Assembly: GCA_021292105.1 (NCBI GenBank)
Contig: CM037875.1
Coordinates: forward strand, 1,268,956 to 1,332,955
Direction: 5' to 3'
DNA from: Anadara kagoshimensis
Lineage: Eukaryota; Mollusca; Bivalvia; Arcoida; Arcidae
DNA length: 64,000 nt
Of the stretch, positions 6,848 through 60,765 are shown in pieces. The notes under the pieces were generated by a model. That model saw only the letters and a list, made by a program, of their open reading frames with translations. It was not told the DNA's origin and made no database searches. Each line of letters begins with the position of its first letter. The stretch's first letter is position 1. The translations under genes were made by a program, and so were the position numbers.

Positions 6848-7847
6848 NNNNNNNNNNNNNNNNNNNNNNNNNNNNNNNNNNNNNNNNNNNNNNNNNNNNN
6901 NNNNNNNNNNNNNNNNNNNNNNNNNNNNNNNNNNNNNNNNNNNNNNNNNNNNNNNNNNNNNNNNNNNNNNNNNNNNNNNNNNNNNNNNNNNNNNNNNNNN
7001 NNNNNNNNNNNNNNNNNNNNNNNNNNNNNNNNNNNNNNNNNNNNNNNNNNNNNNNNNNNNNNNNNNNNNNNNNNNNNNNNNNNNNNNNNNNNNNNNNNNN
7101 NNNNNNNNNNNNNNNNNNNNNNNNNNNNNNNNNNNNNNNNNNNNNNNNNNNNNNNNNNNNNNNNNNNNNNNNNNNNNNNNNNNNNNNNNNNNNNNNNNNN
7201 NNNNNNNNNNNNNNNNNNNNNNNNNNNNNNNNNNNNNNNNNNNNNNNNNNNNNNNNNNNNNNNNNNNNNNNNNNNNNNNNNNNNNNNNNNNNNNNNNNNN
7301 NNNNNNNNNNNNNNNNNNNNNNNNNNNNNNNNNNNNNNNNNNNNNNNNNNNNNNNNNNNNNNNNNNNNNNNNNNNNNNNNNNNNNNNNNNNNNNNNNNNN
7401 NNNNNNNNNNNNNNNNNNNNNNNNNNNNNNNNNNNNNNNNNNNNNNNNNNNNNNNNNNNNNNNNNNNNNNNNNNNNNNNNNNNNNNNNNNNNNNNNNNNN
7501 NNNNNNNNNNNNNNNNNNNNNNNNNNNNNNNNNNNNNNNNNNNNNNNNNNNNNNNNNNNNNNNNNNNNNNNNNNNNNNNNNNNNNNNNNNNNNNNNNNNN
7601 NNNNNNNNNNNNNNNNNNNNNNNNNNNNNNNNNNNNNNNNNNNNNNNNNNNNNNNNNNNNNNNNNNNNNNNNNNNNNNNNNNNNNNNNNNNNNNNNNNNN
7701 NNNNNNNNNNNNNNNNNNNNNNNNNNNNNNNNNNNNNNNNNNNNNNNNNNNNNNNNNNNNNNNNNNNNNNNNNNNNNNNNNNNNNNNNNNNNNNNNNNNN
7801 NNNNNNNNNNNNNNNNNNNNNNNNNNNNNNNNNNNNNNNNNNNNNNN
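6848..7847. other. Assembly gap (1000 N)
   Basis: Exactly 1000 unknown bases, the usual size of an arbitrary scaffold gap. It begins 13 bases beyond the stop codon of the ballast-domain gene and hides its 3' untranslated region. Confidence 0.99.
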
Positions 7848-9954: not shown

Positions 9955-11268
9955 TTGGTGACCGGTGACCTTTAAAGCAAATTTGTGTATATGCTTTTCC
10001 AATGGGGTCCAATGTGAAACAATGTTCTCCGTTGGCAGCCATGTTTTATGGCCAATCAGAAAAATTTTGGCAATCTATGTAAAGGACCTTCTATACATCA
10101 TTCCTGTAAAGTTTAATTTAATTTGCTTCAGTCATTTCTGAGGACATAGTCAAAAATGCGTTTTCCCCATAGGGTCCAATGTTAAACTATCTTCTGCACT
10201 GGCAGCCATGTTTTTCGGCGTATCAATAAAAATTTGGCAATCTAAGTAAAGGACCTTCTATACATCATTTCTGTGAAGTTTTGTTAAATTTGCTTTAGTC
10301 ATTTCTGATGACATAGTCAAAATGCATTTTTCCCATAGGGTCCAATGTTAAACTATCTTTTGCCTTGGCAGCCATGTTTTTTGGCCAATCAGAAAAATTT
10401 TGGCAATTTATGTAAAGGACCTTCTATATATCATTTCTATAAAGTTCGGTTCAATTTGCTTCACTAGCTTCAGAGGAGATAGCATATATATGCTTTCCCC
10501 ATAGGGTCCAATGTTAAACTATCTTCTGCACTTGCGGCCATGTTTTTTGGCGGATCAGAAAAATTTTGGCAATCTAAGTAAAGGACCTTCTATACATCAT
10601 TTCTGTAAATTTTGGTTAAATTCGCTTCGGTCATTTCTGAGGAGATAACCAAAAATTTGATTTTCCCATAGGGTCCAATGTTAAACTATCTTCTGCGATG
10701 GCGGCCATGTTTTTAGGCGGATCAGAAAAATTTCGGCAATCTTTGTGTAGGACCTCCAATACATCATTCCTCTAAAGTTTGGTTAAGTTTGCTTTAGTAG
10801 TTTCAGAGGAGATAGCCAAAATGTGTTTTTCCCATAGGGTCCAATGTTAAACTATGTTCCCCGCTGGCAGCCATGTTTTTAGGCGGATCAGAAAAATTTC
10901 GGCAATCTTTGCAAAAGACCTTCCATACATCATTCCTGTAAAGTTTAATTGAATTCGCTTCAGATGTTTCAGAGGAGATAGCCAAAATGTGCATTTTCCC
11001 ATAGGGCCCAATGTTAAACTATCTTCTGCGCTGGCAGCCATTTTTTTGGTGGATCAAAAAAATTTCGGCAATCTAAGTAAAGGACCTTCCATACATCATT
11101 CCTGTAAAGTTTGGTTAAAATTGGTTCAGGGGTTTCAGAGGAGATAGCCAAAATGTGAAAAGTTTACAGACGGACTGACAGACGGACTGACAGACGGACT
11201 GACTGACGGACGACGGACGCCGAGGGATGGCAAAAGCTCACATGGCCTTTAGGCCAGGTGAGCTAAAT
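9955..11268 (+). mobile_element. Minisatellite-bearing element, family A, copy 1 (5' truncated)
   Basis: About eight units of roughly 160 bp share CCCATAGGGTCCAATG, GGCAGCCATGTTTTT and AAGGACCTTC. The array ends in a (GACGGACT)-rich tract (about 11163-11220) and a 3' hairpin: GCTCACATGGCCT pairing with AGGCCAGGTGAGC, then TAAA. No 5' terminal hairpin is present, so the copy is 5' truncated. The overall design fits pearl-like or Helentron-type non-autonomous elements. Open frames inside it are by-products of the repeat. Confidence 0.75.
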
Positions 11269-16030: not shown

Positions 16031-17130
16031 TGAATATTTCTTTTATTTGAAAATTTCAAAAAGCACTGATTTAACAAAATTTAATTTTTAAACATACAAA
16101 CTTTTTTTTTCTGCACATGAAAACATTTTTTGAAAAAAATTGAAAGTTTGAACAAGATATACAAGTTTATACATCACCTAAATGTCATTCAAGGTTTCAC
16201 TTGGGGTATTTACGGTCAGGTAAGTTCAAATAATATGCAAATTACTGGTTTGAGACATCATTGCCTTGAAACAAAAGATGGAAAGGGAACAAATTATCCA
16301 AAGATGCCTTTGTTATGGTTAAGATGGTGTTGAATATTTTTAACTTCAAATTGTTGGAAAAGGCCATTTCATAACATTGAAATGAGTTTTTGAAAGGCTA
16401 GCTATCACATGCAACAGGTACTGATTTTCCAGGTGATTGTCATGAATATTCTTATTAAGACATCACATTTAATTTACCCAATAAGAACGTACAGAAGGGA
16501 TAATTTTAACATGGCTATATGTGTTGCATTTTTAAAAAAATTAAAAAATTTGCTCTATGTACAGATTTAAATTCACTTTTGGAAAAAAAAAGAATTTAAA
16601 TTTTCCTTTGAGGCCAGCAAATTGTGTATTGTTAAAATATATAATTTTTATTTTTTTTTATTTTTTTTTATCTATTTTTTATATTTTTTTGTATTTGTTG
16701 GAAAGTATGATTTTATTCTTGGATTTTCTATGTGCACTGAATTCATGGAAACACGGTAATTATAGAGAATAGGTATGACATTTGAACAGCTGTAACTGAG
16801 AGACAATTATACTGAAATTCACATCTACTCCAAAACATATGATGTAACATGCCCTACAAACATAGAAAGCAGACATCTAAAACTTGTGTTATTCACATTA
16901 GTGCAGTTCTCACTGGTGTGCCAAGAATAGGAAGGACATCCTACAGAGTTTAACACTTGAAATGAGTACAACTTGTTGGTTACTTGCTCTATTTATTAGA
17001 AGAAGAGAAGGTCAATAAGAAGAGAAAAGATTAAAATTTCAAAGGGGTACAAATCTTTAAAAAGAATTGTAAAATTATTTACAATTTCTTGACATTTACT
17101 TAATTTTAAGTTCATTTTAGAATTCGTGTA

Positions 17131-17175
17131 AGAGAGAGAGAGAGAGTGTGTGTGTGTGTGTCGTGTGTGTGTGTA
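17131..17175. repeat. (GA)n(GT)n microsatellite abutting a splice donor
   Basis: AG repeats followed by GT repeats end directly at the exon edge at 17177. On the sense (minus) strand the intron begins GTACACACACAC, so the donor itself merges into the microsatellite. Confidence 0.9.
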
Positions 17176-17176
17176 C

Positions 17177-17311
17177 CTCATGTGTTATCTCCTGTAGTTT
17201 TTCTCTCTGCATTTTAGCTGCCATTTCTTCCAAGGACTGTAAACTTCTCTTGTAACTCTCTTCTGTTTCCTTGGCTGCAGATAACTGTCTTGACAGTTCC
17301 TTCACTTGGTC
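17177..17311 (-). CDS. Coiled-coil gene, internal exon (45 codons)
   Basis: The acceptor is TAATTCAG before 17311; the donor GTACAC follows 17177. Both phases are 0. It encodes DQVKELSRQLSAAKETEESY, then SLQSLEEMAAKMQREKLQEI: a continuous heptad pattern with Leu/Met/Ala at core positions. It is the most downstream exon found; the next exon should start in phase 0. Confidence 0.82.
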
Positions 17312-17509
17312 CTGAATTACATAAATTATATCAAGAAATAGTGACCAAGTGCTTATGTTTACAGATTCAAGATTTGGCTGTGGGTTCTGGCCATAGCAAA
17401 ATTGGCTGCTTTATTCTGGAGTAAGCTTTTTAATTTTAATTTGCTTAGATCAGTGCACTCAACCAATATATAAATGGGTGCTGGTAGAAATATTGAGAAG
17501 TGACAGGGG

Positions 17510-23689: not shown

Positions 23690-23990
23690 AGATGAGTTGA
23701 GTAATGGTGTTTTAAGTCCCAGTAAAGATTATCTCACTAATAGCGAGACGTTGTCATCTATAAGGGAAGGTACTGAAATTTAGCCTGTGCTTTGCGCTGA
23801 TGGCGTTATACAGCAGGGTGTCATACCTTACATGACATGGTTTTTTAAGTTCTCATCCAAAAAAACCATGAATTTCATTTATAATGCTGAGTGCTGGGCA
23901 AAGAACAGTCACTTCCCACTTTCAAGTCTTGGGTCAGACCCTGTTAGGGGTTTGAACCGACAACCTCCAAAAATCATTCTACCAGTAGTC
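23690..23990 (-). mobile_element. tRNA-derived SINE (second type)
   Basis: On the plus strand the tail side comes first: GAGTAATGGTGTTTTAAGTC, then GCGAGACGTTGTCATCTATA, AGCCTGTGCTTTGCGCTGAT, GTGCTGGGCAAAGAACAGTC and CAAGTCTTGGGTCAGACCC. The same order occurs at 31420, 44325 and 60350. The frame at 23787-24017 runs through it and is not a gene. Confidence 0.65.
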
Positions 23991-25479: not shown

Positions 25480-25640
25480 TGAGTTGTGTTGTGTTGGGTA
25501 ATGGTGTTTTACGTCCTGGTCAAGGATTCTTATATCAGGGTAGTAAATTCAGAAATGGGTGAGAAAACCAGAGTGCCCAAAAGGAAAACTGAACTTCAGC
25601 AATTGAACTGACAAATTATCAAAGGCTTTATGATTTATAA
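25480..25640 (-). mobile_element. SINE fragment
   Basis: GTAATGGTGTTTTACGTCC, GGTCAAGGATTCTTATAT and GAGAAAACCAGAGTGCCC match the SINE body; the head is not preserved. It ends about 80 bp before the coiled-coil exon at 25719. Confidence 0.5.
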
Positions 25641-25718
25641 TCCAATGCTTAAGACCAATGTACGAACAAGGTCCATAATGCACAAACAATTTTTTTTTTT
25701 TTAAGAGTTTAATTATAC

Positions 25719-25818
25719 CTTTATCTTGAAGTTCCTTGATATGATTAACAAGTTTTTTACTGGCCTGTTCCGACTTCCAACGTCTCTCTCTTTCTTGTTC
25801 TAATTCTCCCATTAATTG
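25719..25818 (-). CDS. Coiled-coil gene, internal exon (100 nt)
   Basis: The acceptor TTCTCTATTTTAG... (pyrimidine-rich, ending TTTTAG) precedes 25818; the donor GTATAA follows 25719. It enters in phase 0 and leaves in phase 1. It encodes QLMGELEQERERRWKSEQAS and then KKLVNHIKELQDK, a charged helix with regular Leu/Val/Ile spacing. Confidence 0.85.
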
Positions 25819-28029: not shown

Positions 28030-28450
28030 GCCCCTGTCAAGATTCTTTCACTCATATCAAGGTGGTCAGTTCAGAGATTGCGGGGTAGAGTTGGTAGAGA
28101 ATACCACCAACCTTTGACATGCCAACTGACACACACTCTGACACTAGGATCTGTCCAGCGTGGGATTTGAACCTAGGCAGTGAGCAGTGTTCTGAATATA
28201 TCACTTATATTGAGACATCATCAGCTATAGGTGAATTGGTATCAGTTTTTACTATTGCAGTACACTCAGGGAATGTTCAGGGATTTTGTAGCTTGCACTG
28301 CCTACTGTGACACAAGGCATCAGTTTTTCATGGCCACTTCCAAAGGACCCTGCAATGTTTGTTTCTTAATACAAAGTGTTTGTTCATGGAAAAGTAACAA
28401 CCTATTTTCAAGTCTTGGTCAGATCCAGAAAAGGTTGGAACCCTGACCTA
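28030..28450 (-). mobile_element. Composite SINE remnants
   Basis: 28100-28190 has the class II-like SINE phrases (CCAACCTTTGACATGCCAAC, GTGGGATTTGAACCTAGGC). From about 28200 the body of the second SINE type follows (CACTTATATTGAGACATC, ATCAGCTATAGGTGAA, CTATTTTCAAGTCTTGGTCA). This looks like one SINE inserted next to or into another. Confidence 0.6.
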
Positions 28451-31419: not shown

Positions 31420-31690
31420 GTTGAGTTTAGTAATGGTGTTTAACTTCCCAGTCAAGAATATTTCATTTATATCGAGACGTCGCAAGCTGTAGGCAAACAG
31501 AAATTTGGCCTGTGCGTTGCGCTGATTTCATTATACAGCAGGGTTCTTTATCGTGCCAAGCCCACAGTGACATGGGATCTCGTTTTTTTTAAGCTCCCAT
31601 CCGAAAGAACCGTGACTTTCATTTTGTAATGCCAAGTGCTTGGCGAAAGAACAGTCACTAACCACTTTCAAGTCTTGGGTCAGAAATAGC
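31420..31690 (-). mobile_element. tRNA-derived SINE (second type)
   Basis: Same order of phrases as 23690: GTAATGGTGTTTAACTTCC, ATTTATATCGAGACGTC, GGCCTGTGCGTTGCGCTGAT, GTGCTTGGCGAAAGAACAGT and CTTTCAAGTCTTGGGTCAG. Confidence 0.65.
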
Positions 31691-33619: not shown

Positions 33620-35185
33620 CTTTCACAACACAGACAATTGATCTTAAAGCATGTTTTAGACTTTATTTAACCAAATTTTTCCTGCAATGAATGTTAATTT
33701 ATTGAAAAATTGTAAAAAATCTCTCTTTTTTTTATACAAAACTTCGATTTTTTCTTCCAATATTAAAGACCTATTTCTCAGTAACCCAGAGATGCTTCAA
33801 GATCTTCAAATGACACCAGGAATTTTAGATTAACTGACAAAGAAAAACTAACATTGTAATTGGGATAATTAAGAACTTTTTTAAACCATCTTAAAAAAGT
33901 AAGTATAAACTGTAAAGAACCTGTGAGAGATTTTTCCAAGTGTCATTACAAATTTCAACAAATTTGGCCGATTCAGAAAAATCTCCTCCTCAAGTATTTG
34001 ATTCTCGTATTTTAATCTTCTATTGTATGTTGGTAAATGAATGTGTCCTTGAGTTGATTGCGAATGCTCAATTACCTGGGTATTAAGAGTTAATAATTAA
34101 CTGAACAATGCAATCATACCACAGAAACAGGAGTTAATCAAATCTGATAGATTATTACAATACTGAACATATCACTTGATGATCAAATTAAAAAAACCTA
34201 GCAAGAGATTTTTTATGCAATTTCCTGTAAAAATTACTACTGAATGAAACACTTTTATAACCATTGATCCGAGGTCAAGGCGTCCAACTTATTGTTAATT
34301 TATATCACATTTATTAAACCTGGGGCTATTATTAATTTTTCTCCATGTGAAATTTTACCATTACACAATGATTTTGTTACATTGTTTGAAAACTACCTTC
34401 TGCCTTTAAGATTGGGAAAAACTGGTTCTGAGAACTAGCAAACTGCTTTATGATATACTGGCAATAGCTAGAGTACCTCCATTGCAAATACACTATATTA
34501 TAGTACGTACTATCTAATATTTTGTGAGTAAAGATAGCTATAGATTTAATTTTTCAGTGAATCACTGTTGTTTTGGGGTATTTTTGTGGACAAATTGGGA
34601 AATTTTAGTCATTTTTCCCTAGGGGAAACTACCTTTATTCCATAGTAATCTTAAGTAAACAAAATCCCTGCTACAGTAGATCAGTTGGTAAAGTACTTGC
34701 TTCAATTAGTACATCACATGATAAATTGTAGGAAATTGATTGGATATGTACATGTACTCTATTTTGTATAGTTTCTGTCTGTCCTTAGCAACGAGTATAG
34801 TACCCATGACAGTAAGGTACTATTGTTTTTCCAGACGGGTACTATACTTTTTGCACGTGCCACCTTGGAAACGAGAATGCAATTTTGTAAACAAACATGG
34901 CGTCAAGATTCGGAGACGAGGACCCAGACAGATTCATTTCTGACCAGATTGTACACTACACAATGGGAATTGCCTTATGTCTAAATATCTGTCTGTAAAT
35001 TTAAAGGTCACACAATGGTAAGAATGAACTATGTTTTATAGTGTCATGTGATGTACTAAATCCCCATAGGGGTCTGACAAAAACTTGAAAGTAGGTAGTG
35101 ATGGTTCTTTCACTAAACACTCCACATTTAGAAATGAAAACCACAGGGTCCTTTGGAAGAGATTGTAGTTATATGTGTATTGAAA
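33620..35185. other. Intronic stretch without a supported gene
   Basis: No repeat family or exon was recognised, apart from a weak tRNA-like phrase (GATCAGTTGGTAAAGTACTTG near 34679). Confidence 0.4.
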
Positions 35186-43498: not shown

Positions 43499-44324
43499 AC
43501 ATAAACAAAAATGCGGTTATTTTCAAGTGGTGTAAAGTTTTCCTATTTTTCGGGAAATGTAAAAAATTGCAAGAATTCCCCCCTCGCTAATTCAGATAGG
43601 CCCTTGTTTTCGACACAAGAATGGTTAAAATTGAAAAAAATAACTCCCTTTTGAAATAAAATATGATTTCACAAAAATCTCAACTCACAAAAATCCAAAA
43701 CATATGCAGTAGTTAAAATGAACTATAAAATAATAAAAGACAATCAGTTTTATTGTCAGATTGCGGAGGGCTTCCAATTACAGACAATATATTACTTCAA
43801 AATATTGTAACATTAAGTAAGATAAGGGAGTTAAAGAGAGACATTATAACAAGGTTTTACTGTACAATATTAATCATCACTTTGGCTCAGGTGAGCTAAT
43901 AAATTGTGTGTTTATGTAATTAATAAAAAAAAAAAAAAAAAAAAAAAAAACAAAAAACAAATCTTTACTCAGTTCAGTTTTCTAAGAAAAGTTATACAAA
44001 AACATTGACTTTATTCAAAAGAAAGTAACCTATCTCAATTCACATATAATAAAAATGCATTTCTTTTAAAAAAATTTTGACATTTGAAAATAAATAAAGT
44101 TAAAAGAGACCTAAGGAGTAGGGAAGTTCAGTGAAGTAAGTTCTAAATAAAACAGAGTTCTTGAGCAAACAAAAGTATGTTAACTGTAAATATTGGTTAA
44201 TATTGTGACTTCAGAAATCCATCAAAGTTAAGATGCCTCATTAAGCAATCCTAACAGATGTATAAATACCACTGAGCATTTATCGGGGAACATTTCAACT
44301 TAAGAAAACTAGATATACTTGATT

Positions 44325-47300
44325 GATTGAGTGATGGATTGAATGGCTTTTAAGTCCTTGTCAAGAATATTTCACTTATATGGAGACGTCATCAGCTATG
44401 GGTGAAGTGGCAGAAAGTTCTACCTTTGTAGTACACTTATGAGGGGCAATGTGCAGGGAAGGTTCTTTAATGTGCATCAGTTTTTAAGGTCTTTTCCAAA
44501 GCACACCATGAATTTTATTTCTCAATGCCGAGTGCTTGGCGAAAGAACAGTAACTACCTATTTTTCAAGTCTTGGTAAGAATCAAGCCATGAACATACTG
44601 AGCAAGCACTCTACCAACTGAACATACTGAGCAAGCACTCTACCAACTGAACATACTGAGCAAGCACTCTACCAACTGAACATACTGAGCAAGCACTCTA
44701 CCAACTGAACATACTGAGCAAGCACTCTACCAACTGAACATACTGAGCAAGCACTCTACCAACTGAACATACTGAGCAAGCACTCTACCAACTGAACATA
44801 CTGAGCAAGCACTCTACCAAATGAACATACTGAGCAAGCACTCTACCAACTGAACATACTGAGCAAGCACTCCACCAACGGAACATACTGAGCAAGCACT
44901 CCACCAACGGAACATACTGAGCAAGCACTCTACCAACTGAACATACTGAGCAAGCACTCCACCAACGGAACATACTGAGCAAACACTCTACCAACTGAAC
45001 ATACTGAGAAAGCACTCCACCAACGAAACATACTGAGCAAGCACTCTACCAACTGTACATACTGAGCAAGCACTCTACCAACTGAACATACTGAGCAAGC
45101 ACTCTACCAACTGAACATACTGAGCAAGCACTCTACCAACTGAACATACTGAGCAAGCACTCTACCAAATGAACATACTGAGCAAGCACTCTACCAACTG
45201 AACATACTGAGCAAGCACTCTACCAACGGAACATACTGAGCAAGCACTCCACCAACGGAACATACTGAGCAAGCACTCTACCAACTGAACATACTGAGCA
45301 AGCACTCTACCAACGGAACATACTGAGCAAGCACTCCACCAACGGAACATACTGAGCAAGCACTCCACCAACGGAACATACTGAGCAAGCACTCTACCAA
45401 CTGAACATACTGAGCAAGCACTCTACCAACTGAACATACTGAGCAAGCACTCTACCAACTGAACATACTGAGCAAGCGCTCTACCAACTGAACATACTGA
45501 GCAAGCACTCTACCAACTGAACATACTGAGCAAGCACTCTACCAACTGAACATACTGAGCAAGCACTCTACCAACTGAACATACTGAGCAAGCACTCTAC
45601 CAACTGAACATACTGAGCAAGCACTCTACCAACTGAACATACTGAGCAAGCACTCTACCAACTGAACATACTAAGCAAGCACTCTACCAACTGAACATAC
45701 TGAGCAAGCACTCTACCAAATGAACATACTGAGCAAGCACTCTACCAACAGAACATACTGAGCAAGCACTCTACCAACAGAACATACTGAGCAAGCACTC
45801 TACCAACTGAACATACTGAGCAAGCACTCTACCAACTGAACATACTGAGCAAGCACTCTACCAACTGAACATACTGAGCAAGCACTCTACCAACTGAACA
45901 TACTGAGCAAGCACTCTACCAACTGAACATACTGAGCAAGCACTCTACCAACTGAACATACTGAGCAAGCACTCTACCAACTGAACATACTAAGCAAGCA
46001 CTCTACCAACTGAACATACTGAGCAAGCACTCTACCAACTGAACATACTGAGCAAGCACTCTACCAACTGAACATACTGAGAAAGCACTCTACCAACTGA
46101 ACATACTGAGCAAGCACTCTACCAACTGAACATACTGAGCAAGCACTCTACCAACTGAACATACTGAGCAAGCACTCTACCAACTGAACATACTGAGCAA
46201 GCACTCTACCAACTGAACATACTGAGCAAGCACTCTACCAACTGAACATACTCAGCAAGCACTCTACCAACTGAACATACTGAGCAAGCACTCTACCAAC
46301 TGAACATACTGAGCAAGCACTCTACCAACTGAACATACTCAGCAAGCACTCTACCAACTGAACATACTCAGCAAGCACTCTACCAACTGAACATACTGAG
46401 CAAGCACTCTACCAACTGAACATACTGAGAAAGCACTCTACCAACTGAACATACTGAGCAAGCACTCTACCAACTGAACATACTGAGCAAGCACTCTACC
46501 AACTGAACATACTCAGCAAGCACTCTACCAACTGAACATACTGAGCAAGCACTCTACCAACTGAACATACTGAGCAAGCGCTCTACCAACTGAACATACT
46601 GAGCAAGCACTCTACCAACTGAACATACTCAGCAAGCACTCTACCAACTGAACATACTGAGCAAGCACTCTACCAACTGAACATACTGAGAAAGCACTCT
46701 ACCAACTGAACATACTCAGCAAGCACTCTACCAACTGAACATACTCAGCAAGCACTCTACCAACTGAACATACTCAGCAAGCACTCTACCAACTGAACAT
46801 ACTGAGCAAGCACTCTACCAACTGAACATACTGAGCAAGCACTCTACCTACTGAACATACTGAGCAAGCACTCTACCAACTGAACATACTGAGCAAGCAC
46901 TCTACCAACTGAACATACTGAGCAAGCACTCTACCAACTGAACATACTCAGCAAGCACTCTACCAACTGAACATACTCAGCAAGCACTCTACCAACTGAA
47001 CATACTGAGCAAGCACTCTATCAACTGAACATACTGAGCAAGCACTCTACCAACTGAACATACTCAGCAAGCACTCTACCAACTGAACATACTCAGCAAG
47101 CACTCTACCAACTGAACATACTGAGCAAGCACTCTACCAACTGAACATACTGAGAAAGCACTCTACCAACTGAACATACTGAGCAAGCACTCTACCAACT
47201 GAACATACTCAGCAAGCACTCTACCAACTGAACATACTCAGCAAGCACTCTACCAAATGAACATACTGAGCAAGCACTCTACCAACTGAACATACTGAGC

Positions 47301-48375
47301 AAGCACTCTACCAACTGAACATACTGAGCAAGCGCTCTACCAACTGAACATACTGAGCAAGCACTCTACCAACTGAACATACTCAGCAAGCACTCTACCA
47401 ACGGAACATACTCAGCAAGCACTCTACCAACTGAACATACTCAGCAAGCGCTCTACCAACTGAACATACTCAGCAAGCACTCTACCAACGGAACATACTG
47501 AGCAAGCACTCTACCAACTGAACATACTGAGCAAGCACTCTACCAACTGAACATACTGAGCAAGCACTCTACCAACTGAACATACTGAGGAAGCGCTCGA
47601 CCAACTGAACATACTGAGCAAGCACTCTACCAACTGAACATACTCAGCAAGCGCTCTACCAACTGAACATACTCAGCAAGCACTCTACCAACGGAACATA
47701 CTGAGCAAGCACTCTACCAACTGAACATACTGAGCAAGCACTCTACCAACTGAACATACTGAGGAAGCGCTCGACCAACTGAACATACTGAGCAAGCACT
47801 CTACCAACTGTACATACTGAGCAAGCACTCTACCAACTGAACATACTCAGCAAGCACTCTACCAACTGAACATACTGAGCAAGCACTCTACCAACTGAAC
47901 ATACTGAGCAAGCACTCTACCAACTGAACATACTCAGCAAGCACTCTACCAACTGAACATACTGAGCAAGCACTCTACCAACTGAACATACTGAGCAAGC
48001 ACTCTACCAACTGAACATACTGAGCAAGCACTCTACCAACTGAACATACTGAGGAAGCGCTCGACCAACTGAACATACTGAGCAAGCACTCTACCAACTG
48101 TACATACTGAGCAAGCACTCTACCAACTGTACATACTGAGCAAGCACTCTATCAACTGAACATACTGAGCAAGCACTCTACCAACTGAACATACTGAGCA
48201 AGCACTCTACCAACTGTACATACTGAGCAAGCACTCTACCAACTGTACATACTGAGCAAGCACTCTATCAACTGAACATACTGAGCAAGCACTCTACCAA
48301 CTGAACATACTGAGCAAGCACTCTACCAACTGAACATACTGAGCAAGCGCTCGACCAACTGACCTATCGTAGTAG
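44325..48375 (-). mobile_element. tRNA-derived SINE whose head is expanded into a satellite
   Basis: 44325-44588 is a second-type SINE in minus orientation: a TGAT-rich tail (44321-44335), GGCTTTTAAGTCCTTGTCAA, CACTTATATGGAGACGTCAT, GAGTGCTTGGCGAAAGAACA, then CAAGTCTTGG. Where its tRNA-like head should follow, the sequence enters a 29-bp array. The far end of the array (48340-48375) reads, on the minus strand, ATAGGTCAGTTGGTCGAGCG, a plausible SINE 5' end with the A-box region. The array is therefore bracketed by the two ends of one SINE. Confidence 0.6.
44591..48362. repeat. Satellite of about 130 copies of a 29-bp unit
   Basis: The unit begins GAACATACTGAGCAAGC and ends ACTCTACCAACT (29 bp); 3772 bp divided by 29 gives 130 units with no visible length drift. 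On the minus strand each unit carries CAGTTGGTAGAG and CTTGCTCAGT, the D-arm and anticodon-arm phrases of a tRNA-like SINE head. Point variants are clustered: CGGAAC and TCCACC near 44870-45390, ACTCAGCAAG from about 46250 to 47950, GAGGAAGCGCTCGACC at three places after 47580, and GTACATACTG mostly near the right end. There are no unique spacers. Open frames over it are artefacts that exist where the in-unit TAG is altered. Confidence 0.95.
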
Positions 48376-48479
48376 TTTGATACACCGATACTATTTTTGA
48401 TCAAGAAGACGTATAGATTTGTCTTATTGTAAAGTTTTTGATTTTTGTATTCATTCACTTTAGTGGCATTGAACTAATA

Positions 48480-48740
48480 TTAGGGTAGGCTTACACTATC
48501 AAAAGTTTTGATCAAAGTGACTTTAAAGGTTGTTTTCACCATTAAAAATTTATATGAAAAACTTTGATCAAAGTGACTTTGGTTGTTGTTTTCACTATAA
48601 ATTTTTTTTTTATTAAAAACTTTGTTTAAAGTGACTTTGAAAATTGTTGTTCTTACTATAAAATGTTTTATTAAAAACTTTGATCAAATTCACTTTGAAG
48701 GTTGTTAACTCTATATCTAAAAATTTGATCAAAATCTTTA
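48480..48740. repeat. Imperfect tandem repeat, about 60-bp units
   Basis: AAAACTTTGATCAAAGTGACTT and GGTTGTTTTCACTATAAA-type phrases (given here in parts) recur about four times: GATCAAAGTGACTTT at 48518, 48565 and, diverged, twice more. Confidence 0.7.
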
Positions 48741-51599: not shown

Positions 51600-51747
51600 G
51601 GCACTGTAAATGCACCTAGTTAAAACCCCTCCTTGCACATTGCCCTGAGCACACTGCAAAGCTAAAAAAATTCTGAAACACCACCTTTAGCTGGTCACGT
51701 ATAGATATAAGTGATATATTCTTAAATGCAACATAAAAACCCCATTC

Positions 51748-51794
<47 letters not shown>

Positions 51795-54987: not shown

Positions 54988-57360
54988 CAGAGGCTCAGTG
55001 TGGCTGAGCCTGTATCGCTCACCTGACTAAAATGCTTTTAAAGCAAATTTGTATTCCAGTGATGAAAAAATGCACTGTTTATATCAGACAGAATGGCTAA
55101 GGAAATCACTGTAGAACTATATGTACCATTCACAGTTTTTTTTCAATCTGATTAAAATCACATCTCTCACTTGCTCCCCCATTTTTGATATAGGCACGGA
55201 GTGGGAGATCTGAGGAAACAGTTTAGGGGCATATGTGAATGAGCCACTGTTGTAACATTTATTGTCCAATGAAATTTCAGCTTCCGAGATTTTAAAAGTG
55301 TTTTGCCTTAATTGTGAATGAAACGGGCAATTTGAATTTGTCAATCTAATAAAGGACCTTCCATACATCATTCCCATAAAGTTTGGTTCAATTTGCTTTA
55401 GTAGCTTTAGCGGAGATAGCAAATATATGCTATTCCCATAGGGTTAAACTATGTTCTGTGCTGGCAGCCATCTTTTTTGGCAGATCAAAAAAAATTTCCA
55501 CAATCTAAGTAAAGAACCATCCATACATCATTCCTGTAAAGTTTGATTCAATTTGCTTTAGTAGCTTCAAAGGAAATAATAGCAAATATATGCTTTTCCC
55601 ATAGGGTCCAATGTGAAACAATGTTCTCCACTGGCAGCCATGTTTTATGGCAGATCAGGAAAATTTTGGCAAACTATGTAAAGGACCTTCTATACATCAT
55701 TCCTGTAAAGTTTGGTTCAATTTGCTTCAGTCATTTCTGAGGACATAGTCAAAAATGTGTTTTTCCCATAAAGTCCAACTATCTTTTGCGCTGACAGCCA
55801 TGTTTTTTTGGCAGATCAGAAAATTTTTGGCAATCTATGTAAAGGACCTTTCATACATCATTCCTGTAAAGTTTGGTTCAATTTGCTTCACTAGCTTCAG
55901 AGGAGATATGCTTTTCCCATAGGGTCCAATGTGAAACTATGTTCTCCGCTGGCAGCCATGTTTTTTGGCCAATCAGGAAAATTTTGACAATCTATGTAAA
56001 GGACCTTCATTCCTGTAAAGTTTGGTTCAATTTGCTTCAGTCATTTCTGAGGACATAGTCAAAAATGTGTTTTTCCCATAGGGTCCAATGTTAAACTATC
56101 TTCTGCCCTGGTAGCCATGTTTTTCGGCGGATCAGGAAAATTTTGGCAATCTATGTAAAGGACCTTCTTTACATCATTCCTGTAAAGTTTGGTTCAATTT
56201 GCTTCTAAAGCTTCAGAGGAAATAGCATATATATGCTTTTCCCATTGGGTCCAATGTTAAACTATCTTCTGCGCTGGCGGCCATGTTTTTTTGTGGATCA
56301 GAAAAATTTTGGCAATCTAAGTAAAGGACCTTCTATACATCATTTCTGTAAAGTTTGGATCAATTTGCTTCAGTCATTTCTGAGGAGATAGCCAAAATGC
56401 GTTTTTCCCATAGGGTCCCATGTTAAACTACCTTTTGCTCTGGCAGCCATGTTTTTTGGCCAATCAGAAAAATTTTCGCAATCTATGTAAAGGACCTCCA
56501 ATACATCATTCCTCTAAAGTTTGGTTAAGTTTGCTTCAATAGTTTCAGAGGAGATAGCCAAAATGTGTTTTTCCCATAGGGTCCAATGTTAAACTATGTT
56601 CCCCGCTGGCAGCCATATTTTTAGGCGGATCAGAAAAATTTCGGCAATCTTTGCAAAAGACCTTCCATACATTATTCCCGTAAAGTGTAATTGAATTCGC
56701 TTCAGTCGTTTCAGAGGAGATAGCCAAAATGTGCATTTTCCCATAAGGCCCAATGTTAAATTTTGTTTGGCCCTGGCGGCCATTTTTTTTTGGCGGATCA
56801 GAAAAATTTGGGCAATCTTAGTAAATGACCTTGCATACATTATTCCTGTAAAGTTTGGTTCAAATTGGCTCAGCGGTTTCAAAAAAGATAGCAAATATAT
56901 GCTTTTCCCATAGGGTCTAATGTTAAACTATCTTCTGTGCTGGCGGCCATGTTTTTTGACAGATCAGAAAAATTTTGGCAATCTAAGTAAAGGACCTTCC
57001 ATACACCATTCCTGTGAAGCTTGGTTAAATTTGCTTCAGTCATTATTGAGGAAATAGTCAAAAATGCATTTTTCCCATAGGGTCCAATGTAAAACTATCT
57101 TCTGCGCTGGCAGCCATGTTTTTTGGCGGATCAAAAAAATTTCGGCAATCTAAGTAAAGGACCTTCCATACATCATTCCTGTAAAGTTTGGTTAAAATTG
57201 GTTCAGGGGTTTCAGAGGAGATAGCCAAAATGTGAAAAGTTTACAAACGGACTGACAGACTGACAGACTGACAGACTGACGGACGGACTGACTGACTGAC
57301 GGACGACGGACGCCGAGTGATGGCAAAAGCTCACATGGCTTTTAGGCCAGGTGAGCTAAA
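54988..57360 (+). mobile_element. Minisatellite-bearing element, family A, copy 2 (both ends present)
   Basis: The 5' end CCAGAGGCTCAG-TGTGG-CTGAGCCT forms a hairpin and is followed by GCTCACCTGACT. About fourteen units of roughly 160 bp follow (CCCATAGGGTCCAATG, CTGGCAGCCATGTTTT, AAAGGACCTTC, TTCCTGTAAAGTTTGG), then a (GACTGACA)-rich tract and the 3' hairpin GCTCACATGGCTT-TT-AGGCCAGGTGAGC, then TAAA. The 3' CAGGTGAGC complements the 5' GCTCACCTG. Many short minus-strand frames in it are by-products of the repeats. Confidence 0.78.
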
Positions 57361-58647
57361 AATGCGTTTTTCCCATAGGGTCCAATGTTAAACTACCTTT
57401 TGCGCTGGCAGCCATGTTTTTTGGCCAATCAGGAAAATTTTGGCAATCTATGTAAAGGACCTTCTATACATCATTCCTGTAAAGTTCGGTTCAATTTGCT
57501 TTCAAAGCTTCAGAGGAAATAGCATATATATGCTTTTCCCATAGGGTCCAATGTTAAACTATCTTCTGCCCTAGCGGCCATGTTTTTTGGTGGATCAGAA
57601 AAATTTTGGCAATCTAAGTAAAGGACCTTCTATACATCATTTCTGTAAAGTTTGGTTAAATTCGCTTCAGTCATTTCTGAGGAGATAGCCAAAATGCGTT
57701 TTTCCCATAGGGTCCCATGTTAAACTACCTTTTGCTCTGGCGGCCATATTTTTTGGTCAATCAGAAAAATTTTGGCAATCTATGTAAAGGACCTCCAATA
57801 CATCATTCCTCTAAAGTTTGGTTATGTTTGCTTCAATAGTTTCAGAGGAGATAGCCAAAATGTGTTTTTCCCATAGGGTCCAATGTTAAACTATGTTCCC
57901 GGCTGGCAGCCATATTTTTAGGCGGATCAGAAAAATTTTGGCAAACTTTGCAAAAGACCTTCCATACATTATTCCTGTAAAGTTTAATTGAATTCGCTTC
58001 AGTCGTTTCAGAGGAGATAGCCAAAATGTGCGTTTTCCCATAGGGTCCAATGTTAAACTTTGTTTGGCCCTGGCGGCCATTTTTTTTGCATTTTTCAGCA
58101 ATCTTAGTAAATGACCTTGCATACATTATTCCTGTAAAGTTTGGTTCAAATTGGCTCTACGGTTTCAAAGAAGATAGCAAATATATGCTTTTCCCATAGG
58201 GTCCAATGTAAAACTATCTTCTGCGCTGGCGGCCATGTTTTTTGACGGATCAAAAAAATTTTGGCAATCTAAGTAAAGGACCTTCCTTACACCATTCCTG
58301 TAAAGTATGGTTCAATTTGCTGCAGTCATTTCTGAGGAAATAGTCAAAAATGCATTTTTCCCATAGGGTCCAATGTTAAACTATCTTCTGCGCTGGCAGC
58401 CATGTTTTTTGGCGGATCAAAAAAATTTCGGCAATCTAAGTAAAGGACCTTCCATACATCATTCCTGTAAAGTTTGGTTAAAATTGGTTCAGGGGTTTCA
58501 GAGGAGATAGCCAAAATGTGAAAAGTTTACAGACGGACTGACGGACTGACAGACTGACTGACTGACTGACTGACGGACGGACTGACGGACGACGGACGCC
58601 GAGTGATGGCAAAAGCTCACATGGCCTTTAGGCCAGGTGAGCTAAAA
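57361..58647 (+). mobile_element. Family A, copy 3, joined directly to copy 2
   Basis: It starts in the middle of a unit (AATGCGTTTTTCCCATAGG) immediately after the 3' end of copy 2, runs through about eight units and closes with its own (GACTGACG)-rich tract and 3' hairpin GCTCACATGGCCT-TT-AGGCCAGGTGAGC. Long parts match copy 2 (compare 57650-58020 with 56340-56720). Confidence 0.75.
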
Positions 58648-60349: not shown

Positions 60350-60765
60350 AATGATTGATTGATTGAATTGAGTTTTACCTCCTAGTCAAGAATATTTCAA
60401 TTATATCAAGATGTCACCAGCTTTAGGTGAACTGAAATTTTTTTTACCTTTGCAATGCACTCATTGCAATGTGCATGGAGGGTTCTTTAATGTGGCATGC
60501 CTGCTGTGACACTGGACCTCAGATTTTAAGGTCTCTGTGACTGTCATTTCCAAATGCCGAGTGCTTGGCAAAACAACAGTCACTACCTATTTTCAAGTCT
60601 TGGTCAGACCCAGGTGGGGTTCTAACCAACATTAACCTGACATCAACTGCAATGTGAAATGAAGTACATAATTTGCTTATGGTCACAACATGATCCTGAC
60701 GGGATTCAAACCCATGACTTTAAGATCTGAAGTCTGATGCTTGAACAACTGAGCTACAATTTCTT
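60350..60765 (-). mobile_element. tRNA-derived SINE (second type), full-looking
   Basis: A TGATTGATTGATTGAATTGA tail side is followed by CCTAGTCAAGAATATTTCA, GAGTGCTTGGCAAAACAACA, CTATTTTCAAGTCTTGGTCA and, on the head side, GGGATTCAAACCCATGAC and CTTGAACAACTGAGCTACA. The last two are the B-box and A-box complements; this copy shows what the head of the 44325 SINE should look like. Confidence 0.7.

Follow-up and report, generated by a model that had tools for sequence, protein, structure and literature searches.

How does a long tandem repeat arise at a place that a short interspersed element (SINE) should occupy with its tRNA-like head? The question is raised by a locus of the bivalve mollusc Anadara kagoshimensis, in a stretch of 64,000 nucleotides (the window; C19:1268956-1332955) of an assembly of 1.115 Gb in 36 contigs (GCA_021292105.1). 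The original prediction, made from the letters of the window, had placed about 130 copies of a 29-bp unit at 44325..48375. Tandem Repeats Finder (TRF) found 130.1 copies of period 29 with 96% matches and 0% indels at 44590-48362, and the predicted coordinates proved correct within about 15 bases. Coordinates without a contig name refer to the window, and those of all features are collected in Table 1.

Fixed 29-bp cutting of the minus strand gave 130 units of 19 types, of which 70 are identical to the consensus TCAGTTGGTAGAGTGCTTGCTCAGTATGT. The unit comprises the D-arm and the 5' half of the anticodon arm of a tRNA-like head; the two phrases predicted for these arms on the minus strand, CAGTTGGTAGAG and CTTGCTCAGT, are both present in it. 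A 36-mer spanning the unit junction, with up to 3 mismatches allowed, matched 128 times in the window versus 0 times in 100 shuffles. Assembly-wide it also matched 128 times, so the 29-bp array is a single locus within 1.115 Gb. The same region (44200-48600) gave no match in Rfam, ARAGORN found no tRNA anywhere in the window, and a 39-mer unit pattern had no match in viral_contigs. With regard to a subtelomeric preference, the array lies at C19:1.31 Mb on a 61.35-Mb contig, the ends of which may not be telomeres.

The units differ from each other by 4.0% on average (mean pairwise difference), and their variants are patchy along the array. C22G is confined to units 14-72 and A10G to units 103-120, five of the six cases of T1A fall in units 4-19, and the seven units adjoining the SINE body are all consensus. 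Unit identity at lags 1, 9, 12, 15 and 16, among 24 lags tested, was reached by at most 9 of 500 shuffles. Patchy variants in a minisatellite are a trace of local block duplication by slippage or unequal exchange.

To characterize the host element, a 301-base query was compared with the assembly, which returned further SINE copies (71-88% identity among the best matches listed). Nineteen of these were fetched and oriented, and a head consensus was built from 18 genomic copies, with omission of L020, which shares its flanks with L016. The family consensus begins with ACCACTATGGTAGCTCAGTTGGTAGAGTGCTCGCTCCGTATGTGGGAGGTCATGGGTTTGAACCCTGGCCGGGTCTGACCAAGACTTGAAAATAGG and contains TAGCTCAGTTGG and GGGTTTGAACCC, which we take to be the A box and the B box, followed by the body and a CAATCAATC tail. 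The family thus has the parts of a tRNA-headed SINE, namely a head with A and B boxes, a body and a short-repeat tail, with the B box of the window copy decayed. The body may resemble the Nin domain.

Aligned to the head consensus on the minus strand, the unit is identical at 27 of 29 positions without a gap (score 48), while the best of 2000 shuffled units scored 22. The claim that the unit derives from the tRNA-like head of the SINE is therefore borne out. Against single copies, 15 of the 19 fetched scored above 22, this being the shuffle maximum taken against the consensus, and L016 is identical to the unit at all 27 aligned bases (27/27).

The right flank of the array fits the 5' end of the same family. 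Here, 10 of the 14 positions of ACTACTACGATAGG agree, in register, with the consensus 5' end ACCACTATGGTAGC, a level reached by 14 of 125,946 window positions, and the inner 12 nt agree at 8 of 12, as reached by 234 of 125,954 positions. On the left, the last unit continues into TCATGGCTTGATTC, the decayed B-box region, and then into the SINE body; the sequence at 44320-44589 shows the same body as six other places in the window, some of which retain one tRNA-like head ahead of the body, as does the copy at 60352-60608 with GTAGCTCAGTTG and GGGTTTGAATCCC. Since the unit matches the head and SINE ends lie on both sides, the array is placed, as judged from the sequence, within a single SINE, where it separates the A-box region from the B box. 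The original prediction had proposed this arrangement, with the body at one edge of the array and a plausible 5' end at the opposite edge, and had named two grounds for giving it up: a unit that does not align to the head, and flanks from different elements. Both were looked for and neither was found.

Table 1. Features of the SINE-borne array, related copies in the window and head-motif arrays elsewhere in the assembly
Feature	Location	Strand	Details
Array of 130 tandem 29-bp units	44590..48362	-	TRF, unit cutting, junction 36-mer, head alignment; consensus TCAGTTGGTAGAGTGCTTGCTCAGTATGT
5' end of SINE head ACTACTACGATAGG	48363..48376	-	in register with first unit; family consensus ACCACTATGGTAGC
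Remnant of a decayed B box GGCTTGATTC	44579..44589	-	directly after last unit; family consensus GGGTTTGAACCC
SINE body and (TCAA)n-type tail	44320..44578	-	matches to other window copies
SINE copy, body	60352..60608	-	one tRNA-like head with B box upstream, to about 60760
SINE family copy	28194..28423	-	match to body left of array
SINE family copy	23710..23932	-	match to body left of array
SINE family copy	31432..31678	-	match to body left of array
3' part of SINE family copy	51620..51768	+	match to body left of array
SINE family copy, head and body split by insertion with inverted ends	34669..35162	+	match to body left of array
Head array	C1:37.60 Mb		30 bp, 4 units
Head array	C1:43.36 Mb		56 bp, 11 units
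Head array	C1:50.08 Mb		47 bp, about 86 units; SINE retained at both ends
Head array	C2:30.70 Mb		34 bp, 2 units
Head array	C3:42.23 Mb		39 bp, 2 units
Head array	C4:54.49 Mb		33 bp, 2 units
Head array	C5:21.43 Mb		23 bp, 7 units
Head array	C7:0.22 Mb		44-45 bp, about 57 units; no SINE body
Head array	C7:5.33 Mb		42 bp, about 100 units; weak body fragment only (E 6e-5)
Head array	C7:44.18 Mb		30 bp, 2 units
Head array	C8:32.23 Mb		32 bp, about 24 units

The length of the unit can be read from the head itself. A distance of 35 bp separates the TCA within GCTCAGTTGG from that within GGTCATGGG in the consensus, and the window copy is without the 6 bp GGGAGG between these two words, which reduces the spacing to 29 bp; the array junction reads ATGT/TCAGTTGG. 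A tandem duplication with overlap at TCA would give exactly the observed unit, although this is sequence arithmetic and the mechanism is unproven. In the proposed course of events, a full-length tRNA-headed SINE would have inserted at the locus on the minus strand, and its head would then have lost GGGAGG, so that a spacing of 29 bp was left between the TCA words of ATAGG/TCAGTTGG and ATGT/TCATGG. A tandem duplication using the 3-bp microhomology, by slippage or end joining, would have created two head units. Slippage or unequal exchange, together with the duplication of local blocks, would have extended these to 130 units, flanked by the SINE 5' end at one edge and by the B-box remnant, the body and the tail at the opposite edge; a selected function would not be required. 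What we infer here is the sequence of steps, their mechanism (slippage or exchange) and the absence of function. As a whole, this explanation (SINE insertion, 6-bp loss in the head, duplication at the TCA microhomology and expansion to 130 units) appears highly probable.

A counterpart with one unit is present in the same assembly. The locus L009 (C19:1.99 Mb), about 680 kb from the array on the same contig, shares 91-97% identity with the window in its collinear pieces over 39-54 kb. The SINE of the window is found there too; it has exactly one unit and the 6-bp loss, and is without the first ~16 nt of the head. Near the array, the substitution divergence between the two is 1.9-5.4% per stretch. 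The duplication is long, its pieces being mostly in order from window position ~10 kb to the end of the window and into the 20 kb beyond it, with many indels, and a probe at 1.413 Mb matches 2.066 Mb with 90% identity over 910 of 2000 bases. It may represent either an ancient segmental duplication or a divergent haplotype left uncollapsed. Its extent was recorded as C19:1278926-1352955 versus C19:1959642-2019645 (window 9971 onward; L029-L039), an indel-rich duplication of ~85-98% identity in pieces, 650-690 kb apart.

Similar separate expansions occur elsewhere in the genome. The pattern GGTAGAGTGCTN{19,46}GGTAGAGTGCT matched 417 times in the assembly and its reversed control 0 times. The matches listed are separate arrays of differing periods, and at least 16 further head-motif arrays exist besides the window, with periods of 23-56 bp. 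For 11 of them the flanks were read (Table 1; large unit numbers were estimated from spans), and the SINE body adjoins nine (blastn E 5e-26 to 4e-84), the match at L071 and L081 being limited to the first ~60 body bases. Five loci (one on C9, three on C10 and one on C11) were counted without flank reading; the C9 unit appears to resemble the head in its D-arm word alone, and a single event may underlie the two 37-bp C10 loci, which have a unit in common. These two, C10:13470084-13470575 and C10:13829516-13830229, lie 360 kb apart, perhaps in a duplicated segment. Target-site-like repeats of 14, 11, 9 and 7 bp were found at L079, L070, L058 and L069, respectively, and those flanking the two-unit copies L079 and L070 suggest that the duplication lies within one insertion.

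Two 56-bp arrays, L072 (C5:47.24 Mb, 6 units) and L073 (C5:49.29 Mb, 5 units), were kept outside this count, as no family match was found in them; both contain GGTAGAGTGCT and have very similar flanks 2 Mb apart. Apart from these, unrelated tandem arrays were seen by eye at L058 1-940 (~37 bp) and L067 about 395-801 (~40 bp), 0.2-0.6 kb from two of the SINE-head arrays, which could be chance or a locally repeat-prone region.

Several results weigh against an origin of the array by duplication within the head of one inserted SINE. Four of the 19 fetched copies (L011, L017, L023 and L027) fall short of the shuffle maximum when aligned to the unit, and the window copy has no convincing target-site duplication, its best candidate being equalled by 412 of 1000 random pairs. 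The repeats at L079, L070, L058 and L069 were likewise reached by 33, 42, 51 and 87 of 1000 random pairs from an AT-rich pool. Two of the 11 flank-read arrays, those at C7:0.22 Mb and C7:5.33 Mb, have no body or only a weak fragment of it, and the junction overlaps in the other head arrays are merely 0-4 bp as judged by eye. The consensus head shows no excess of short direct repeats (4 pairs of 4-mers versus a shuffled mean of 6.5, and 0 pairs of 5-mers versus 1.6), so its sequence gives no prediction of which copies expand; a tendency of the head to duplicate because of direct repeats within it is not supported by these counts. Finally, since the head in L009 is without its first ~16 nt, this copy may have collapsed from an array and need not show the state before expansion.

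This last point leads to a different history, in which the array came first and the segmental duplication, or the separation of the alleles, later. The copy with one unit at C19:1.99 Mb would then have collapsed, a single deletion having taken away its remaining units together with the SINE 5' end. In L009, the deletion stops at the unit phrase ATCAAA/GTTGG, the single unit of this copy equals the array consensus and not the divergent unit at the right edge, and the 4.0% difference within the array is close to the divergence of the flanks. However, the consensus unit is also near the family head, so that a never-expanded copy would look alike, and two events are needed under either history. 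We regard such a collapse as quite possible, but less likely than not.

A broader proposal takes the heads as recurrent seeds of arrays from 2 to ~130 units with independent period and phase, the growth or retention of which is tied to RNA polymerase III (pol III), and the pair with 1 and 130 units as a live length polymorphism. The tRNA A-box consensus is TRGYNNARYNGG. Compared with it, the first unit's own A box, TAGGTCAGTTGG, misses one of nine fixed positions and that of the internal units, ATGTTCAGTTGG, misses two of nine. Because most of the A box is kept in each unit, growth or retention of the array could be linked to the binding of pol III factors or to transcription. The B box of the window copy is more decayed than its A boxes. 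From these motifs, pol III activity is possible for the SINE family and doubtful for the window copy, and we consider the proposal as a whole rather unlikely.

That the number of units reflects an assembly artefact, through false expansion or collapse, is distinctly unlikely. The window does contain a 1000-N gap elsewhere (6848-7847), and the duplicated segment may be an uncollapsed haplotype, but 130 indel-free units of 19 types in patches are unlike one piece pasted repeatedly. Still less probable is that the array spread as a mobile unit, brought in by a SINE subfamily or another element. The neighbouring 166-bp tandem repeats of the window presumably resemble a mobile element with internal tandem repeats; yet the 29-bp unit is unique in the assembly, with no second locus with unrelated flanks found, the other head arrays differ in period and phase, and the duplicate segment carries the same SINE at the matching place with one unit. 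A pre-existing minisatellite, beside or into which the SINE inserted by chance, with a coincidental likeness to a tRNA head, would fit the lack of a clear target-site duplication but is hardly credible: the unit aligns to the head at 27/29 positions in the correct register, the two SINE ends are likewise in register, and other SINE copies show such a pattern with different units.

Whether the head is a hotspot of duplication was assessed relative to the body. Counts for the head word GGTAGAGTGCT came to 22,566 (145 for its reversed control) and those for the body word AGGTAGTGACT to 6,444 (595 for its control), which makes the head word 3.5 times as common. With the same gap range, the body-word pattern gave 57 matches and its reversed control 23, versus 417 and 0 for the head pattern. 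The complete list of body arrays holds seven loci, four SINE-body-like by their letters and three unclear, L082 alone having been compared with the family. Per motif copy, the number of array loci was no different, with at least 17 among 22,421 head copies, including the window, versus 4 among 5,849 body copies (Fisher p 1.0; p 0.31 with all 7 body arrays). This corresponds to at least 0.76 per 1000 copies for the head versus 0.68 for the body, or 1.20 when the unclear arrays are counted. The raw head excess in pattern matches is to a considerable degree due to copy number and a few long arrays, and a head hotspot relative to the body is unsupported once normalised. A strong head excess is not seen and a modest one may exist, as the head count is a lower bound (at least 17), the window spacing of 18 lies outside the 19-46 range applied to the body, and the body sample is small. 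In the body-word control, a 20-bp satellite (AGGTAGTGACTGATGACTTA-like) was met at C3:68499623-68500384 and C3:68832452-68833680, in opposite orientations ~330 kb apart.

The array had been assigned to a putative intron of a coiled-coil gene, and a crude composition filter indeed detected coiled-coil-like exons on its left (17120-17410 and 25552-25818, minus strand). On its right, however, the sole filter match (57889-58125) lies inside a 166-bp tandem repeat, which leaves the intron unsupported. Pfam searches with ten open reading frames or exons gave no hit above the curated cut-off, the best being a betaPIX coiled coil at 17120-17410 (E 7e-5). Arrays of the 166-bp unit followed by a GACT/ACTG-type microsatellite were seen at 9995-11219, 55337-57304 and 57368-58590, and we take them to resemble bivalve Pearl/Helitron-like elements with internal tandem repeats. 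At 34700-35090, an insertion of ~360 bp with inverted ends TTAGTACATCACATGA...TCATGTGATGTACTAA, by eye similar to a small DNA transposon, divides the head of a SINE copy from its body.

SINE-derived satellites (sSats) are already known. Those described in squamates are tandem arrays of parts of tRNA-headed SINEs, often bounded by the remaining SINE, with many independent origins, different units and sizes that range from internal duplications up to long arrays; both SINE ends are retained in an uncommon variant, and the unit of sSat3Ppi2, a minor gecko variant, matches the tRNA portion (PMC10702118). The window array is similar in its unit made of a SINE part and its bounding SINE sequence, and the head arrays of this genome likewise differ in their units and range from duplications to long arrays. 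In contrast, the squamate units described there are 126-215 bp long and mostly include parts derived from the body or from long interspersed elements, and the main sSats occupy multiple loci (PMC10702118), whereas here the unit of 29 bp lies wholly in the head between the A and B boxes and at one locus. As in an sSat, the unit comes from an identified SINE family, a SINE terminus stands at the array ends and the number of units (130) exceeds the minimum of 4. The same homogenised unit at several loci, which characterizes a major sSat, was not found, as all 128 junction matches genome-wide lie in the window array.

Among molluscs, the limpet Patella caerulea has PcH-sat, derived from a Nin-SINE, with a 179-bp unit of which 118 bp are SINE-derived, mostly from the 3' part; it is without both pol III boxes, makes up ~10% of the genome and is pericentromeric (PMC11121367). 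Like the window array, it is a mollusc tandem repeat from a tRNA-headed SINE, but its unit is mostly the SINE 3' part and not the head. Minisatellites from human Alu and an unstable variable number tandem repeat from mouse B1 have units that, where spelled out in these sources, measure 6-8 bp, namely (GGCAGA)n and (CGGGAGGC)n (PMC9659126, PMC6947457). These also grew inside SINE copies, with units of 6-8 bp versus 29 bp. Alu and B1 are 7SL-derived SINEs and not tRNA-headed. Hy/PolIII of Hydromantes and Xenopus satellite 1/OAX are tandem repeats with a tRNA-related region, for which the SINE link is considered unproven in the squamate study (PMC10702118); their units are long (~200 nt in Hy/PolIII) compared with 29 bp. 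In the open-licence papers listed by literature searches, titles and abstract openings gave no description of head-only SINE arrays from molluscs.

The window array is thus a short-unit variant that falls under the basic definition of a SINE-derived array. Of the predicted satellite birth inside one SINE, the position inside the element stands, while the term satellite is generous for one 3.8-kb array, as the 29-bp unit forms an array at this locus only, unlike a classical satellite with its long, heterochromatic arrays at many loci. Its distinctive features are the 29-bp unit within the head, the single locus, the one-unit counterpart and the graded series in the same genome. The start of a tandem repeat is usually inferred after its trace has been lost. 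Here, the donor element and its likely breakpoints occur in one assembly together with a one-unit counterpart and with nine further SINE copies that represent different stages of this process. Direct tests thus become possible of how satellite birth begins and of how the unit length is set. The locus extends the sSat phenomenon of reptiles, in short-unit form, to a mollusc, and illustrates how a tandem DNA repeat can arise from a retroposon.

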